Source: Thermomicrobiales bacterium (GTDB lineage Bacteria > Chloroflexota > Chloroflexia > Thermomicrobiales > UBA6265). From it: a stretch of DNA of 64,000 nt. The notes beneath the pieces are model-generated. The model did no database searches and had not been told where the DNA came from. It was given only the letters and a program-made list of their open reading frames with translations. Where the stretch lies: the NCBI GenBank assembly GCA_019637585.1, contig JAHBVL010000001.1:372001-436000 (forward strand). Direction: 5' to 3'. The position numbers and the translations under genes were made by a program. How positions within the stretch are numbered: position 1 is the stretch's first letter; each line of letters begins with the position of its first letter. This document shows, one piece after another, positions 20,036 to 56,968 of the stretch.

Positions 20036-20217
20036 CCGGCGGCTGGCAGCGGGCAGCCGGCAGCACGACGAGGACGGTCGAGCACTTGTGGCCCGCGCTG
20101 CTGGCAACAGGTAGTCGAGACAGGAGGAACTCAATCGGATGTTCAAAATAATCGCGGACTGCCGGTCACCGGCTAATCCCATCTCACTGCCTGCTGCCTG
20201 CTGCCGGCTGCCCGCTC
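20036..20217. repeat. Gene-less cassette bounded by inverted GGCAGCN heptamer arrays
   Basis: Left array (20036-20067): ggcagcg, ggcagcc, ggcagca units. Right array (20186-20217): ctgcctgctgcctgctgccggctgccc, the same units inverted. About 118 bp separate them, including gaggaactcaatcggatg, with no supported gene. It fills the whole gap between the AcoX-like gene and the enolase-superfamily gene and ends one base before the latter's ATG. Confidence 0.78.
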
Positions 20218-25524: not shown

Positions 25525-25670
25525 AGTAGGCAAAAGGCAAAAGGCAAAAGGCACTCTCCCCTCTCCCGCGGTCGGGAGAGGGGCCGGGGGTGAGGGATAT
25601 CCCACGGTTGGGAGAGGGGTCGGGGGTGAGGGATATCCCGCGGTCGGGAGAGGGGACGGGGGTGAGGGAA
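25525..25670 (+). repeat. Heptamer array plus three tandem B hairpins
   Basis: ggcaaaa x3 and ggcactc (25529-25554) are followed by three B units: 25556-25598, 25601-25634 and 25636-25669. The second reads cccacggttggg rather than cgcggtcggg, keeping a hairpin with changed arms. It lies between the fused permease and ATPase genes, so it is transcribed within that operon. Confidence 0.8.
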
Positions 25671-29226: not shown

Positions 29227-29308
29227 GAGGCGGAGAGGCGGAGAGGCGGAGAGGCGGAGAGGCGGAGAGGCGGAGAGGCGGAGAGGCGGAGAGGCGGAGA
29301 GGCGGGGA
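29227..29308 (+). repeat. Octamer tandem repeat (GGCGGAGA)n
   Basis: About ten uninterrupted copies of the 8-mer ggcggaga lie 120 bases upstream of the binding-protein gene start, then decay to ggcggggagacggg. It is a pure purine-rich tract on this strand, prone to copy-number change. Related 8-mers occur inverted at 47284-47310 (cgcctttc cgcctatt cgcctctc). Confidence 0.9.
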
Positions 29309-29335
29309 GACGGGAGGACGGGGAGACGGGCGATC

Positions 29336-30016: not shown

Positions 30017-30352
30017 TCGTCATTCCGACCGAAGCGGAGGGATCTCTCGTTCGGGCCTGAGCATGCTGCGAATCGCCAACCCGGCCTACGCCAACGAGAG
30101 GTCCCTCGACGCGGCTCGGGATGACGATGTGATGATGCGCGGGCAGCGAAAGCGCCATGAATGGCGAGGCTACGCGTCGATTTCATGCTGTGCTGGTGCC
30201 CTCAGGTGCCCGGCGCGGCGGCTCGGGATGACGCTGTGATTCGGGGCGGGATGTCCCTTACCCCCGACCCCCGCGGGATGTCCCTCACCCCCCGACCCCT
30301 CTCCCGCGGTCGGGAGAGGGGAGAATTCCAGTGCCCAGTGCCCAGTGCCCAG
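30017..30352 (-). repeat. Composite repeat in reverse orientation (A, palindrome, B, heptamers)
   Basis: On the minus strand the order is C-B-A. A spans about 30017-30130 (cgtcattccgacc ... ctcgggatgacg). Then comes the short palindrome shared with 4305-4335 (30138-30175), a partial D-like stretch, B at about 30250-30323 with an extra ccctta-cccccga repeat, and the heptamers cccagtg x3 at 30329-30352. The 29959-30378 gap holds nothing else I can support. Confidence 0.75.
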
Positions 30353-30378
30353 TCAACTCGCCGACCAGCAGACGAACA

Positions 30379-33225: not shown

Positions 33226-33403
33226 CAGGCAAAAGGCAAAGGGCAAACGGCAAAAGTAGCCAGATTCCCTCAGTTCAATGCCCTCACTCTTACGCGGTCA
33301 GTAGTCCGTAGTTCGGGCACCTTTGGCCCGACGTGATGGCAGGGCACAGGTCCCTGCACTACGCTTGCCAATCTCCCTTTGCCCTTTGCCCCTTGCCTAT
33401 CTC
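33226..33403. repeat. Gene-less cassette bounded by inverted GGCAAAG heptamer arrays
   Basis: Left array (33233-33255): ggcaaaa, ggcaaag, ggcaaac, ggcaaaa. Right array (33372-33398): ccctttgccctttgccccttgcc. Between lie about 115 bp containing a D hairpin (33310-33333). It fills the gap between the SDR stop and the dehydrogenase ribosome site. Confidence 0.8.
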
Positions 33404-35489: not shown

Positions 35490-36110
35490 TTGGCAAAAGG
35501 CAAAGGGCAGAAGGCAGAAGTGAGGGAGAGGTCATGACGATCCCTGTGAGCGTTCGATTGCGTTGGACAGCGCCGTTACGCGCGCAGTAAGTGTGGTGAT
35601 TGCAGCAACGACATTCTGGGCGGAGGATGAATCGAGGTATGCCAACCGCTCAGCGATGAGGATCTGCGTCTTCATCTCGCTCAACGAACCTCGGGCTATC
35701 GACAGGAACCGGAGATAGTCGGCAGTCCTGTTGCGGGCGTTGCCTTCGGCAATGTTGGAAGGCACGGACACGGCAGCCCGCCGCAGTTGAGAGGTCAATC
35801 CATACAGCTCATCTTTTGGAAAGCTCTCGGTCATCTTGTAGATCAGAACGGCCAGGTCGATGCCATCTCTCCAGACGCGAAGGTCGGTGAAATCGCGGAC
35901 CCCGTCGTACATCGGCGATGGTTCCTCGATGGTAAATCTGGCAGAGGGTCGTTTCTCGGGATCCATATGCCAGAGGTAGCTAATCTCGCTACCCATTGCG
36001 TCCATCAGCTCGTCCGGAAGCAATTCATCGTCTTCCATCTTGACATCTCCCAGCCACCAATTACGCTTCTTTGCCCTTTGCCCTTTGCCCTTTGCCCTTT
36101 GCCCTTTGCC
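35490..36110. mobile_element. Candidate cassette 1: inverted heptamer arrays around a four-helix-bundle gene
   Basis: Left array (35491-35520): ggcaaaa, ggcaaag, ggcagaa, ggcagaa. Right array (36070-36110): six near-perfect tttgccc units, the inverse of the left. Between lies a single gene, the four-helix-bundle protein at 35532-36038. The cassette sits between the aminotransferase start and the Bmp binding-protein terminator. Its plan matches that at 48346-48875, which uses a different heptamer. Mobility is inferred from architecture only. Confidence 0.6.
35532..36038 (-). CDS. Four-helix-bundle protein (S23/23S rRNA IVP-like), copy 1
   Basis: A 168-residue helical protein. From about residue 47 it shows the family pattern DFTDLRVWRDGIDLAVLIYK, FPKDELYGLTSQLRRAAVSV, then PSNIAEGNARN and FLSIARGSLSEMKTQ. 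These proteins occur in intervening sequences of 23S rRNA genes and, as Avd, in retroelements; none has a known enzymatic activity. An N-terminal acidic extension of about 45 residues is unlike copy 2; the start is supported by gggag 8 bases upstream. About half of the core residues match copy 2 at 48406-48843. Confidence 0.9.
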   Translation of the reverse strand: MEDDELLPDELMDAMGSEISYLWHMDPEKRPSARFTIEEPSPMYDGVRDFTDLRVWRDGIDLAVLIYKMTESFPKDELYGLTSQLRRAAVSVPSNIAEGNARNRTADYLRFLSIARGSLSEMKTQILIAERLAYLDSSSAQNVVAAITTLTARVTALSNAIERSQGSS

Positions 36111-37217: not shown

Positions 37218-37329
37218 CCTGGTTCTCCTCTCCGATAGTCACTACACGCGACCGATGTCACGCTACGGGATCCGTTCCCGCGCGGGGCTCGATCCCAGGG
37301 AGGGGTCGAGGCCCGTGAGGGACCGGGAA

Positions 37330-37667
37330 ATGGGCATAGGGCAAAAGGCAAAGGGCAATAGGGAATGGGAAATGGAATTCTCCCCTCTCCCGCGGTCGGG
37401 AGAGGGGTCGGGGGTGAGGGATATTCCCGCCCCCAACCACATCGTCATCCCGAGCACGGTCGAGGGACCTTTCGTTGGGGTAAGCCGGGTCGCCGATTTG
37501 CAGCGTCGCCAGACCCGAACGAGAGATTCCTCCGCTTTGGTCGGAATGACGAAGAGGGTGGGCGGAATGATGATGCGGGCGAGTATGTCCCTCACCCCCG
37601 GCCCCTCTCCCGACCGCGAGAGAGGAGAGACTATCTCCCAGTGCCCAGTGCCCAGTGCCCAGTGCCA
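37330..37667. repeat. Full symmetrical composite repeat C-B-A-B'-C'
   Basis: Left C (37338-37375): ggcaaaa, ggcaaag, ggcaata, then ggaatgg variants. B at 37380-37422, A at 37439-37556, an inverted B' at 37587-37631, and inverted heptamers cccagtg x4 at 37640-37666, ending at the stop codon of the permease gene. It is the only copy with both arms and looks like a complete unit with inverted ends. The 450-bp gap holds no gene. Confidence 0.8.
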
Positions 37668-38612
37668 TCACCGCTGCCCCCTCGCATACGGCACGCCCAA
37701 CGATGCGGGGAGCTGTGTTTTCCCGGCCAGGACGACCAGGGCCAGCATGATGCCGATATAGGGAAGCATGCCGATGAATTCGGTGCGAATGCCGACGCCG
37801 ACGATCTGCAGACTGTCCCCGAGGGCATTGAGCATACCGAAGAGGATGGCGCCGGCGGCGATTCGCCAGGGGTTCCAGCCTCCCAGCATGGTGATCGCCA
37901 GGGCGATGAATCCCTGCCCGACGGTCATGCCGATGGTGAAGATGCGCAGATCGGCGACGGCCAGAAACGCGCCGGCAAACCCGGCCATGACGCCGGCCAG
38001 TCCGATTGCCAGATACCGGGTGCGGATGACGTTGACGCCCGCCGCGTCGGCGGCGAAGGGACTCTCGCCGACCGCCCGCACGTTGAGCCCGAACCGGGTG
38101 CGGTAGAGGAGCCAGGCAAAAACCGGCACCAGCGCCCAGCAGATGTAGAAGATGATCTGGCGATGGAAGATCGCCGGTCCGATGATCGGGATGTCGCTCA
38201 GAAGGGGGATTTCGATCGAACGCGCCCGCACGTTGGCCGCCACATTCTGTCCGCCATACCAGTCGCGGAAGAGATAGCCGGTCAGGCCGGCGGCGAAGAT
38301 GGTGATGGCCAGACCGACGAGCACCTGGTCGACCCGGAGATGGATCGTCAGGAATCCAAAGAGCAGGGCCATGGCCAGTCCGCCGGCAATACCGCCCAGC
38401 ATGCCCAGAACGACGCTCTCGGTTTTGTATGCGGCATGGAACCCGAAGAAACACCCGGAAAGCATCATCCCTTCGATACCGAGATTGAGCAGCCCCGCTT
38501 TCTGGGCGAAGACGTCGCCGAGCGACGCGATTGCCAGCGGCACGGCGCGCAGCAGACCGGTGGCCAGCATGGCCGTCAGAAAGTCGGTAACGTCGATGCC
38601 ATTGAGCGTCAT
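37668..38612 (-). CDS. Bmp-type ABC permease (second subunit)
   Basis: A 314-residue permease with 8-9 hydrophobic helices in the BPD_transp_2 pattern of branched-chain/nucleoside importers. GLLNLGIEGMMLSGCFFGF near residue 35 and RYLAIGLAGVMAGFAGAFL are family marks, the first being the IGxxGMM-type loop. Its start overlaps the preceding permease stop by 4 bases. The stop abuts inverted heptamers of the composite repeat. Confidence 0.9.
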   Translation of the reverse strand: MTLNGIDVTDFLTAMLATGLLRAVPLAIASLGDVFAQKAGLLNLGIEGMMLSGCFFGFHAAYKTESVVLGMLGGIAGGLAMALLFGFLTIHLRVDQVLVGLAITIFAAGLTGYLFRDWYGGQNVAANVRARSIEIPLLSDIPIIGPAIFHRQIIFYICWALVPVFAWLLYRTRFGLNVRAVGESPFAADAAGVNVIRTRYLAIGLAGVMAGFAGAFLAVADLRIFTIGMTVGQGFIALAITMLGGWNPWRIAAGAILFGMLNALGDSLQIVGVGIRTEFIGMLPYIGIMLALVVLAGKTQLPASLGVPYARGQR

Positions 38613-46615: not shown

Positions 46616-46617
46616 TG

Positions 46618-46804
46618 GCAAAGGGCAAAAGGCAATGGGCAAAGGGCCGGAGATATAGTTCGAGATGTGGACATGGTGCGTGTGGTGGGAAATTGGGCCG
46701 CTCACGCCTCTTCAGGAGATCCTCGCCGAGGCCAGTGAGGCATGCGCCATGTCCGCGGGCAGCATTTCCTCCACTATTGCCTTTTGCCTCTTGCCCTTTG
46801 CCCA
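46618..46804. repeat. Gene-less cassette bounded by inverted GGCAAAG heptamer arrays
   Basis: Left array (46618-46647): ggcaaag, ggcaaaa, ggcaatg, ggcaaag. Right array (46776-46803): attgccttttgcctcttgccctttgccc. About 125 bp between, no gene seen. It fills the junction of the cupin stop and the aldolase start codon. Confidence 0.8.
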
Positions 46805-48345: not shown

Positions 48346-48875
48346 AACTGGTAACTAGTAACTAGTAACTGGTAACTGGTATCAGGATCCAGATCTTGTA
48401 CAGACTTACCTCGGCTTCTTGCTGGCCAACGATGTGTGCAGTGAGGAGATCTGTTTCATCAGGCTCTCGATTTCTTGGATGACTTGCACGCTTTCCAGCT
48501 CTTGAAGATATCCCTCCCCAGCCGCAAGGAGCACTTGCGTTTTCATTTCGCCGAGAGAACCGCGAGCAATCAACAGGAATCGCAGGAATTCTCCATGCTG
48601 GTTGCGAGAATGACCCTCAGCGATATTGGAGGGAACTGAAACAGCGCATCGACGAAGCTGACTCGTGAGGCCGAATTGCTCCTCCCGTGGGAACTGGCGG
48701 GTCATCCTATAGATCACCGACGCGAGCTTCATTCCTTGCTGCCAAACCCGAAGATCAGTGAAATCCCGAATCGTGGTCTCGGCGCTTTGTTGTGGCAAGT
48801 CGACTACGCCCCTCTCACGAAGTACTCCAGTTCCATCAACCACCAGTTGCCAGTTACCAGTTGCCAGTTACCGAC
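48346..48875. mobile_element. Candidate cassette 2: inverted GGTAACT arrays around a four-helix-bundle gene
   Basis: Left array (48346-48382): aactggtaactagtaactagtaactggtaactggt. Right array (48842-48873): accagttgccagttaccagttgccagttacc, the inverse. The only gene inside is the four-helix-bundle protein at 48406-48843. Both ends use the same 7-mer, which differs from that of cassette 1. It is inserted between an M29-type gene and an LLM oxidoreductase gene on the same strand. Confidence 0.6.
48406..48843 (-). CDS. Four-helix-bundle protein (S23/23S rRNA IVP-like), copy 2
   Basis: A 145-residue protein with DFTDLRVWQQGMKLASVIYR, FGLTSQLRRCAVSVPSNIAE and RFLLIARGSLGEMKTQ, all in register with copy 1. 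The GTG start at 48843 lies inside the right heptamer array, so the ribosome site would be in repeat DNA; a later start is possible. The family binds RNA or nucleic acid by its basic surface in known cases, but no activity is established. Rather different C-terminal tails show that the copies are not a recent duplication. Confidence 0.88.
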   Translation of the reverse strand: MVDGTGVLRERGVVDLPQQSAETTIRDFTDLRVWQQGMKLASVIYRMTRQFPREEQFGLTSQLRRCAVSVPSNIAEGHSRNQHGEFLRFLLIARGSLGEMKTQVLLAAGEGYLQELESVQVIQEIESLMKQISSLHTSLASKKPR

Positions 48876-50699: not shown

Positions 50700-53117
50700 C
50701 TACGATTCCCGAGACGCTGGATCGTCCGTTTGTGTACCGCCATCCTTCCGAAGGACCCAGGCTGCCGCTACGGCAGCGCTACCGGCAAGGATGGCTCCGG
50801 TCCAGCCGGAGGTTTGCGCATCTGGTCCGGCTCCGGTCGAAGGAAGCGTATCGACCGTGTCGGTGCCGCCCGACTTCGGCGGTCGCTTCTTCCGTTTGCA
50901 GTGGCCGTCGACGCACCGGTAGCCCTTGCAGCAGGGCGCTTTTTCATCACAGGCGGCTTTTTCTCCCACGCAGTGCGCATGCTTGCCGCAGGTTCCGTGA
51001 ATGCACTGCAAACCGTCGCAGCAGTCTTCGTCTTCGCTGCAATCGGCGCCCTTGTGCCGGCAGGCGATTTCGCACATGCAGGTCTGGTCGTTCCAGAGGG
51101 CGAGAGGATCGCAGCATTCGAACAGGGCGTCTTCGCCGGGGACGCAGCGACCGGGTATGGCGTCGGTGAGCAGGCAGGCGACGCACGCGTATTCCACGCA
51201 GGTGATATCGAAGCGTGGGTCGTCGTTGCAGCAGTCGAGTGTGTCACTGCAATACTCGCCATGCTTGGCGCATGAGGTCTCGTCTGTGTCGTCCGGGGGC
51301 AGACAGACGCGCGGCTCGACATCACTGCAGATGCCGGAACAGCACTGCTCGTCGTCAGTGCAATCGGACTGAATCGAGCGGCAGCCGCAGTTGTTCATGT
51401 CGCAGTTGTGGCTGCAGCAGGCCTGTTCGGTAGCGCAATAGACCCCTTCACCGTCGGCCAGGCAGGGAACGCAGCATCCGCCGCTGCAGAATTCATCTCC
51501 GTCGCAGTGTGCGTCCGTGAAGCAGGAGACGCCGTTCTCACAGAGAACGCGGCACTCGCAGTTGTTCGGGTTGTAGATGGCGTTCGCCTCGCAGCACACC
51601 GGGGTCGATTCACCGCAGGCAGGATTGGTGACATTCGATTCCAGGCAGTCCTGAACGCACAAACCCTGAGAGCACGTTGCTGCTCCGCAGCAATCCTCCG
51701 ATGCATCGCAGGTGGCGTTGAGTGGCTGGCAGCATACGTCTGATTCGCAGGCCGCCGTTCCACAGCACTGTGTGCTGCTGTTGCACGAGGCTCCGATATT
51801 GAGGCAGCACACGCTGGCAGTGTCATCGCAATTGCTGGAGCAGCAGGTGTCGTTGCTCTCGCACGCGGCGCCGATCGCCGAGCAGTAGGCGCAGAACCCG
51901 CTTGCGTTGCACAGCAGTCCGGTTTCGCAGCAGTCGATATCTGCAGCGCATGCCGCTCCCTCGAGGCAATCGGGGACGCATTCGCCACTCGAGCAGATGT
52001 GGCTTGGGCAGCAGTCGCCGGTGACGTCGCAGTCCCCTTCGGTGGGGACGCAGCAGGTGCCGCTGTCGCAGGTCAGGCCGTCTTCGGTGCAGCATTCCGA
52101 GGCGAGCGTACAGGATTCGTTGATGCCGCCGCACGTTTCCTCCTCGACGCAGAATCCATTGATGCAGCTCAGCGATCCGCAACAGCCGGAATCGATGCAC
52201 GCTTCACCGCTGGCCAGACAGCAGACGCCAAACTCGCACGTCTCGGAGCAGCATTCGTCGGCCGAGGCGCAGGTGTTGTCAATGGCGAGGCAGGGCGGGA
52301 CACATGTCTGGAATGAACAAACCAGGTCGCCGCAGCATTCGACATTAACGGAACAAAACTGGTCCTCGAGCACGCAGCAGGAGCCGCCATCCGGATCGCA
52401 GACCTGGCTGCAACACTCGCTGCTTTCTGCACACGTGTCACCTATGGCGAGGCAGGATGGCTCATCGACTGCGCAGAACCCATTGTCGCAAACCAGGCCG
52501 GTGCAGCAGTCGTCCGACGTGCCACACGCGATTCCGGCCGGAGCGCAGCACTGACCGCTTTCGCAGTTCAGGTCGCCGCAGCATCCTCCACCTGGACACG
52601 TATCGCCGAGTATGTGGCAACAGCCGCCGCTTTCGCAGGTCCCGCTGCAACACTGGGCATCACTCGTGCAGTCATGGCTCGTGGCGAGACAACTCAAGCA
52701 GACGTGCGCCGTGTCATCGCAGGTCCCGCTGCAGCAATCAAACCAATACGGATGTCCGCCGCCGGGCTGGCAGAGATGTCCATCCACTGAACAGGCTGCG
52801 GAGCAGGATCCTGTTTCGTCGCATCCTCCGCAACAGCGGGTGCAACAGCTGGGGTCACCGGATGAGCTGCAATCGACTCCAGTCTGGCAGTTGTTCCGGC
52901 AGCTGGAGGTCCCGTCGCCATCGGAGAGGCACAGCAAATAGGGATCGCAGTCGGCATTCGTCGTGCAATCCTCGCCAAGTCCGGCGGCCTGTGTCTTCTG
53001 ATGGACGGCGACGGCCGCGCCACCTCCCAGCACGCCGCCAATCCACTTGACCAGCGAACGCCGGGATACCCCCGACGCGAACACCCGCGTCAGGTCATCG
53101 AACCGTCGATCGTCCAT
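50700..53117 (-). CDS. Giant cysteine-rich surface protein with Tat leader and LPSTG tail
   Basis: An 805-residue protein. Residues 1-45 are a Tat leader (RRFDDLTRVFASGVSRRSLV, then a Gly/Ala hydrophobic core). The middle is a long series of short units such as GDTCAESSECCSQVCDPDGG and ASADECCSETCEFGVCC, with paired CC and spaced Cys like small disulfide-knot domains. The end is TLPSTGAGPD, a hydrophobic helix and RKDGG, i.e. an LPxTG sorting signal. Export folded by Tat with disulfides, then wall or surface anchoring, is inferred. No sortase gene is in the window. Function is unknown. Confidence 0.85.
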   Translation of the reverse strand: MDDRRFDDLTRVFASGVSRRSLVKWIGGVLGGGAAVAVHQKTQAAGLGEDCTTNADCDPYLLCLSDGDGTSSCRNNCQTGVDCSSSGDPSCCTRCCGGCDETGSCSAACSVDGHLCQPGGGHPYWFDCCSGTCDDTAHVCLSCLATSHDCTSDAQCCSGTCESGGCCHILGDTCPGGGCCGDLNCESGQCCAPAGIACGTSDDCCTGLVCDNGFCAVDEPSCLAIGDTCAESSECCSQVCDPDGGSCCVLEDQFCSVNVECCGDLVCSFQTCVPPCLAIDNTCASADECCSETCEFGVCCLASGEACIDSGCCGSLSCINGFCVEEETCGGINESCTLASECCTEDGLTCDSGTCCVPTEGDCDVTGDCCPSHICSSGECVPDCLEGAACAADIDCCETGLLCNASGFCAYCSAIGAACESNDTCCSSNCDDTASVCCLNIGASCNSSTQCCGTAACESDVCCQPLNATCDASEDCCGAATCSQGLCVQDCLESNVTNPACGESTPVCCEANAIYNPNNCECRVLCENGVSCFTDAHCDGDEFCSGGCCVPCLADGEGVYCATEQACCSHNCDMNNCGCRSIQSDCTDDEQCCSGICSDVEPRVCLPPDDTDETSCAKHGEYCSDTLDCCNDDPRFDITCVEYACVACLLTDAIPGRCVPGEDALFECCDPLALWNDQTCMCEIACRHKGADCSEDEDCCDGLQCIHGTCGKHAHCVGEKAACDEKAPCCKGYRCVDGHCKRKKRPPKSGGTDTVDTLPSTGAGPDAQTSGWTGAILAGSAAVAAAWVLRKDGGTQTDDPASRES

Positions 53118-56574: not shown

Positions 56575-56968
56575 GCCGTAGACCCCCCGTGTCTGCTTTC
56601 TCAGGGACACGTCGCTACTTCCTGCAGTGACGTGATGGACAGTCTTTCATTGCGTACGCATGCATCGAAGACAGCCGTCCGGCGAGAATCGGCAGACACG
56701 GGGGTCTGCGGCTACTGAACCTGACATCGTCTCCTTTCCCGACGAAGTGGTCAACGGTGCTTGGGTTCACGCATGCATCGAAGACAGCCGTCCGGCGAGA
56801 ATCGGCAGACACGGGGGTCTGCGACTACTGAACCTGACACCATCTGTTTTCCCGAGGAAGTGGTCAACGGTGCTTGGGTGCACGGCTGCATCGAAGACAG
56901 CCGTCCGGCGAGAATCGGCAGACACGGAGGTCTGCGGCTGCTGAACCTGACATGGTGTCTTTTCCTGG
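56575..56968. repeat. 113-bp tandem repeat, three copies, plus an inverted partial copy
   Basis: Units start at about 56661, 56774 and 56887 (exactly 113 bp apart), each with tgcatcgaagacagccgtcc, then ggcagacacgggggtctgcgg, a short hairpin. The last copy is about 80 bp. An inverted copy of the hairpin segment (gtagaccccccgtgtctgc) is at 56582-56600. The array fills most of the 56548-57187 gap upstream of the 1109-residue Cys-rich gene. A -10-like TATGAT lies at 57085-57090. Confidence 0.88.

Follow-up and report, generated by a model that had tools for sequence, protein, structure and literature searches.

Small S23-family genes enclosed by inverted 7- and 8-letter tandem repeats, a putative new class of bacterial mobile element

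Genes of the S23 family (PF05635), which encode small four-helix-bundle proteins, are enclosed by inverted tandem arrays of a gene-specific heptamer or octamer in Chloroflexota and in other bacteria. This association is real and general and, as far as the searchable literature shows, was previously unlinked; a literature search for an S23-heptamer connection found none, which is weak evidence given that it covered only open-licence PMC papers and no preprints. We are confident, on the basis of comparative sequence data, that the S23 gene and both its arrays constitute a single mobile unit. The best reading of these units is a new class of small mobile element that formally resembles the RAYT/REPIN pair.

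Anatomy and distribution of the S23 cassettes

The window, a 64,000-nucleotide stretch of a Thermomicrobiales genome (Chloroflexota), contains two S23 cassettes with the following components:

35492..35520, plus strand: left heptamer array of cassette 1 (TRF period 7 and sequence; GGCAAAA/GGCAAAG/GGCAGAA)
35532..36038, minus strand: S23/four-helix-bundle gene of cassette 1 (168 aa; PF05635 domain at residues 52-152)
36069..36110, plus strand: right array of cassette 1 (TRF, 100% matches; six perfect copies of CTTTGCC; inverted relative to the left array)
48346..48381, plus strand: left heptamer array of cassette 2 (AACTGGT/AACTAGT)
48406..48843, minus strand: S23/four-helix-bundle gene of cassette 2 (145 aa)
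48843..48872, plus strand: right array of cassette 2 (CCAGTTG/CCAGTTA; inverted relative to the left array; unit AACTGGT)

A preliminary description of this DNA had proposed that inverted heptamer arrays surround a single four-helix-bundle gene and that the same plan recurs in a second cassette with another heptamer. Both proposals hold: the two arrays of cassette 1 are of reverse-complement type, the profiles PF05635 (E = 6e-36) and TIGR02436 (E = 2.7e-34) concur on its protein, and the AACTGGT arrays enclose a second PF05635 gene (E = 1.6e-36; also matched by TIGR02436). The copies in the left array of cassette 1 (GGCAAAA GGCAAAG GGCAGAA GGCAGAAG) are imperfect. Both cassettes lie between protein genes, neither of them within a 23S rRNA gene, and each contains one S23-family ORF and no known transposase (DDE, HUH or serine/tyrosine recombinase). 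The two S23 proteins are 59% identical. The genome encodes six S23 genes, each flanked by inverted arrays whose 7- or 8-mer is particular to the locus; the six words, AACTGGT, AGCAGGC, GGCAAAG, the octamer AGACGGGG, AGATGGT and GTCCGGA, all differ.

The main survey included 126 S23 loci, 123 from Chloroflexota and three from Bacteroidota and Holophagaceae, with arrays sought in 350-bp flanks; a scan of genome contigs gave just three loci. A matching inverted pair was defined by a strict test (at most one mismatch), and 2000 random sites from the same genomes served as the control. At least one array was detected at 116 of the 126 loci, arrays on both sides at 77, and none at 10. The strict inverted pair was present at 60 of the 126 loci, that is, only about half, compared to 0 of the 2000 random sites; where both sides carried an array, the arrays matched at 60 of 77 S23 loci versus 0 of 44 random sites. 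Among plasmid-borne S23 genes from Cyanobacteria, Bacteroidota, Gemmatimonadota and Alphaproteobacteria (hosts including Nostoc, Calothrix, Anabaena, Pseudanabaena, Riemerella, Gemmatirosa and Azospirillum), 16 of 17 passed the strict test. Examination of S23 family members for flanking inverted arrays, the first check put forward in the preliminary description, thus did not refute the cassette model. The outer span of the cassettes is about 440-670 bp (median 513), and the left array is G-rich on its strand in 54 of the 60 pairs, with the opposite polarity in six. Cassettes occur in both orientations relative to neighboring genes. S23 is the only one of all neighbors that is found repeatedly between matching arrays in different phyla.

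On cyanobacterial plasmids, S23 cassettes were observed inside CRISPR-Cas operons (L218, L219 and L227). In Pseudanabaena and Anabaena sp. 90, the cassette lies between cas6 and cas4, and in Picosynechococcus PCC 7003, between cas10 (cmr2) and cmr3.

Occupied sites, empty sites and the repeat word

Comparison of allelic sites indicates, at the level of sequence, that the gene and its arrays are gained or lost as one. On plasmids of Nostoc, Aulosira and Calothrix, empty sites with flanks 88-96% identical to those of the occupied sites contain neither the S23 gene nor the arrays (L217 versus L232/L233; L222 versus L235/L236/L241; L226 versus L238; L214 versus L239/L240). The traM site is occupied by a cassette in Nostoc C052 and is empty in two C057 plasmids; in ATCC 53789 (L234:925-1139), an S23-less insert with AGGGAAC-type arrays replaces the cassette. 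At the cassette 1 site, 11 relatives hold 69-328 bp without S23 or GGCAAAG arrays, and one of these, G005, has an unrelated GGCTATC array there. The cassette 2 site lacks the cassette in G005, G013, G022 and G241, which hold 48-138 bp and no array, and contains an unrelated array in G024. Most relatives have neither of the window cassettes. The second check named in the preliminary description, whether empty orthologous sites keep the arrays, accordingly left the model standing, given the plasmid empty sites and the 11 cassette 1 sites without S23 or GGCAAAG arrays. The suggestion made there of a mobile unit ended by short tandem repeats is supported by these array-free empty sites and by the joint travel of gene and arrays.

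Another genome of the same class, G158, carries an S23 cassette (L053:1354-1928) at a site that is empty in its congeners G240 and G238, where 41 and about 70 bp are found. This cassette is inserted within a DNA methylase-like gene, the frame of which is kept and remains stop-free over about 190 codons (chance about 0.0005 under a Markov model, uncorrected for the post hoc choice of the case), with the S23 gene using another frame. At L226 and L214, the cassette appears, in our reading of the sequences, to give the upstream gene a new stop codon. Separately, an approximately 240-bp non-coding insert with inverted AGATTTT arrays was identified in an Aulosira plasmid (L237:340-580) and is missing from a sister plasmid.

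S23 is classically known from the loops of rRNA hairpins. This location, along with the abundance of S23-less arrays in S23-bearing genomes, would be compatible with insertion of S23 cassettes into pre-existing heptamer hairpins, in which case the arrays would be a target of the element rather than one of its parts. This possibility is scarcely tenable because it is largely refuted by the close empty sites without arrays; furthermore, words correlate with the S23 subfamily even where the loci are unrelated, and the sampled S23-free genomes have no arrays.

The occupied and empty sites show no clear target-site duplication; some bases are replaced, and the flanks are only 88-96% identical. The sequence GGTTCTA/GGATTCTA in L222/L241 was considered as a target duplication and rejected: in our reading, it is better explained as part of an array end because L226 shares this repeat. 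Several S23 loci have long been inherited at one place, so that jumps must be rare. No two S23 genes of one genome were near-identical in the sampled genomes, and no excision or transposition event was observed. Empty sites alone cannot distinguish gain from loss; gain is favored because the empty state is the majority at the compared sites.

By the same kind of comparison, the repeat word was found to be tied to the S23 protein and to track neither the host nor the site. Between genomes, the mean word distance was 1.1 for S23 proteins with at least 75% identity, 2.4 at 65-75%, 2.75 and 3.1 in the next two ranges, and 3.4 below 45%, the last value being that of scrambled words. For 42 pairs with at least 60% S23 identity and unshared flanks, the word distance was 2.24, compared to 3.29 after shuffling (sd 0.14), and 0 of 2000 shuffles reached a value as low. 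Different S23 genes within one genome have words at a distance of 3.4, as unlike as random, and a repeat dialect of the host lineage was rejected because these words differ like scrambled ones. At the cassette 2 site of G002, the S23 protein is closest to that of cassette 1 (72%), and the word is cassette 1-like. This case and the tracking of the protein by the word at unrelated loci imply that arrays and gene belong together, although common descent of the gene and its ends could yield such coupling without physical recognition.

These data bear also on another possibility, namely that replication slippage extends the arrays at the S23 locus once the cassette has inserted. The arrays would then be a by-product of a selfish RNA element that forms a hairpin, similar to the 23S intervening sequence (IVS), and would have no role in mobility, with the stem involved in RNA processing, for example, by RNase III. 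The IVS of the Coxiella burnetii 23S rRNA contains an S23 ORF within a 28-bp terminal-repeat stem that is cut by RNase III (PMC4990558). The array length is variable, and the two window cassettes are predicted to fold with their arrays paired, at energies below those of all shuffles (z = -1.9 and -2.8). Slippage, however, does not account for the same word at both ends or for the resemblance between the words of related S23 genes whose loci are unrelated, and leaves dispersed arrays with matching words unexplained; the occurrence of cassettes in both orientations relative to their neighbors also speaks against this scenario. We consider this scenario quite improbable.

Dispersed arrays and gene-less pairs

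Within 544 kb of this genome, 54 arrays of period 7 and 26 of period 8 were detected, compared to nine for all other periods from 5 to 12; Markov shuffles of the sampled sequence produced two arrays, none with period 7 or 8. This excess, along with the lack of matching pairs at the 2000 random sites, agrees with the contention of the preliminary description that chance is unlikely. Chance or general repeat richness was rejected on the grounds of period specificity and the random-site controls. The tandem heptamers of this genome are mostly intergenic and are dispersed. Among the 46 solo 7-mer arrays, 65% are within one mismatch of one of the genome's own S23 words, whereas S23 words of other genomes matched 8.6% (at most 35% in any of 2000 draws); the specificity for the own S23 word is lower among 8-mer arrays. 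Judging from such matches, arrays of the resident words fill the genome.

The same specificity was apparent across genomes. The GGCAAAR tandem has 114 matches in this genome, seven in G002 and none in 30 relatives, and the AGATAGG tandem has 94 in G158 and none in seven congeners. The AGTCGTS tandem was found only in G004, G005, G012, G022, G243 and G244. G012, with 39 AGTCGTS matches, departs from this pattern in that none of the four S23 loci detected in this draft has AGTCGTS; G243 and G244 contain few AGTCGTS copies and no detected S23 gene with exactly this word. In S23-free Chloroflexota (17 stretches from about 14 genomes), no period-7 or period-8 arrays were found in 331 kb, compared to 30 in 400 kb of S23-bearing Chloroflexota.

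The window contains both solo arrays and inverted pairs without a gene:

20038..20216, no strand assigned: gene-less inverted pair, CTGCCTG (type of L002, another S23 gene of this genome)
25528..25553, plus strand: solo array AGGCAAA, a cassette 1-type word
33227..33397, no strand assigned: gene-less inverted pair, GGCAAAG (cassette 1 type), 120 bp between the arrays; candidate non-autonomous element
37332..37362, plus strand: solo array GGGCAAA, a cassette 1-type word, adjoining a nested repeat cluster
46617..46803, no strand assigned: gene-less inverted pair, GGCAAAG (cassette 1 type), 129 bp between the arrays; candidate non-autonomous element

Inverted pairs thus are not exclusive to S23 genes, as the three non-coding pairs indicate. 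No common internal sequence was found in the gene-less pairs beyond the arrays and one short shared stretch.

Several other features of this genome were observed. In one case without S23, inverted CATAGTT arrays enclose a short ordinary gene that resembles the N-terminal region of a UxaA-type hydrolase (L194:16391-16842). Nested repeat clusters consisting of a 36-mer with inverted CCCTCTCCC/GGGAGAGGG motifs are located beside heptamer arrays at window positions 25564-25669, 30246-30353 and 37310-37690, sometimes with different words on either side. A long octamer array with about 13 copies of GAGGCGGA (29227-29329) represents a word that recurs in the genome and only loosely matches the own octamer S23 word. 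The window also includes a 113-bp unit in 2.7 tandem copies (56656-56965) and an 805-aa cysteine-rich ORF with many repeated CC motifs (50700-53117).

The array-bounded DNA could be moved by an unidentified enzyme of the host or of an element, with S23 being a cargo or a regulator that gains from bracketing. Family searches (PF05635/TIGR02436) revealed no known catalytic motif in S23 and no Y1 domain, inverted arrays enclose a non-S23 gene as well, and gene-less inserts exist. Against this stand the recurrence of S23, alone among the neighbors, between matching arrays across phyla, the tracking of S23 by the word and the lack of arrays in the sampled S23-free genomes. Two candidate partners fare poorly as well. 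No reverse transcriptase (PF00078) was detected in this genome, which is 96.6% complete, and this enzyme is present in only 5 of 41 genomes; dependence on it was rejected. Y1/HUH transposases, with six matches in this genome, are missing from many S23-bearing relatives, such as G005, and were likewise rejected as partners. An unidentified enzyme remains possible but unlikely.

Proposed mechanism and relation to known systems

The anatomy of the S23 elements is nearest to that of the 23S rRNA IVS, and their logic is nearest to that of the RAYT/REPIN pairs (PMC3116915). Like the IVS, which is about 430-450 nt long, they are small, have a central S23-family ORF and complementary ends able to pair, and show long vertical inheritance (PMC4990558). 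Unlike the IVS, they are located between or inside protein genes rather than in the 23S rRNA gene, their ends consist of tandem 7/8-mers whose word is specific to the protein, and, by extrapolation from the 544-kb sample, hundreds of related gene-less arrays are dispersed in this genome. As with RAYTs, there are few distinct gene copies per genome, with the closest kin in other genomes (cassettes 1 and 2, at 59% identity, are a partial exception), the gene is flanked by its own short repeat, non-coding inverted doublets are dispersed, and repeat and gene co-vary (PMC3116915). In contrast, S23 is a four-helix bundle and not an HUH/Y1 transposase, the repeats are tandem heptamer or octamer arrays and not palindromic, and the entire S23 gene cassette is either inserted or absent at allelic sites.

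A distant relative of S23 is Avd, an accessory nucleic-acid factor of diversity-generating retroelements (homology of PF05635 and Avd, PMC10053308; weak bAvd match, E = 3e-4); unlike in these retroelements, no reverse transcriptase was found in this genome. The S23 units also differ from classical insertion sequences in having a single S23-family ORF and no known transposase. Because the defining features of the known families (rRNA location, HUH transposase, reverse transcriptase) fail, we regard the class as new; with the IVS as the parent kind, it could be called an IVS variant.

Heptameric repeats have been described, with no source identified for them, in Xanthomonas (GGGNATC) and Nostoc (GGGGA(T/C)T) (PMC4692102), and in Beggiatoaceae (TAACTGA; PMC4679880). 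Xanthomonas has 70-75 convergent inverted heptamer pairs per genome (PMC4692102). In both papers, the repeats are viewed as possible G-quadruplexes or regulatory sites, and S23 is named in neither. The arrays described here resemble these repeats and the cyanobacterial STRR in being tandem and mostly intergenic, and those of Xanthomonas also in forming inverted pairs.

The explanation that we consider probable, albeit with considerable room for doubt, is that the S23 gene and its arrays make up a small mobile element, with S23 recognizing its own word and acting in trans. The gene is central and the arrays form the two ends, with the left strand rich in G and the right rich in C. S23, as an oligomer-forming four-helix bundle, most likely would recognize its own word, in the form of either DNA or RNA, and this recognition would allow any DNA enclosed by inverted arrays of the word to be copied or inserted. 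Solo arrays and gene-less pairs then would be non-autonomous derivatives mobilized in trans, in a manner similar to the presumed mobilization of REPINs by RAYTs. The insertions are mostly intergenic, often within operons, lack an evident target duplication and replace from a few to some tens of bases; host replication or repair enzymes would supply the strand chemistry. It is only inferred that S23 binds the word, that it acts in trans and that host replication/repair enzymes are involved; the role of S23 as the word-specific factor of the unit is favored, but not firmly. Since the arrays are predicted to pair as an RNA stem, reminiscent of that of the Coxiella IVS, a step at the RNA level is not excluded.

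Six polar positions, Q33, R36, S40, N44, E47 and E70, are conserved in 94-100% of 120 S23 proteins; judging by their spacing, we place the first five on one helix face and E70 on another helix. A catalytic S23 therefore is possible but unproven. A bolder proposal, which we offer only tentatively, is that S23 is a new transposition enzyme, with the conserved polar set as the active site and the heptamer word as the recognition site, and that S23 families underlie many of the heptameric repeats in bacteria (Cyanobacteria, Xanthomonas, Beggiatoaceae, Chloroflexota).

Each protein is paired with a single word, and each word with a single protein, which makes the idea open to direct testing. The only solved S23 structure that we found is XCC0516 (PDB 2gsc) from Xanthomonas campestris; given that this species has GGGAATC arrays, XCC0516 is predicted to be flanked by them. 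If the explanation is correct, mobile elements with tandem-repeat ends and a tiny protein of no known recombinase fold would be spread across phyla and inserted in operons, CRISPR-Cas loci included. This may explain why many bacterial genomes are strewn with 7- and 8-letter repeats, and two old puzzles may meet here: the role of the widespread S23 proteins and the origin of the heptameric repeats of Cyanobacteria, Xanthomonas, Beggiatoaceae and others.
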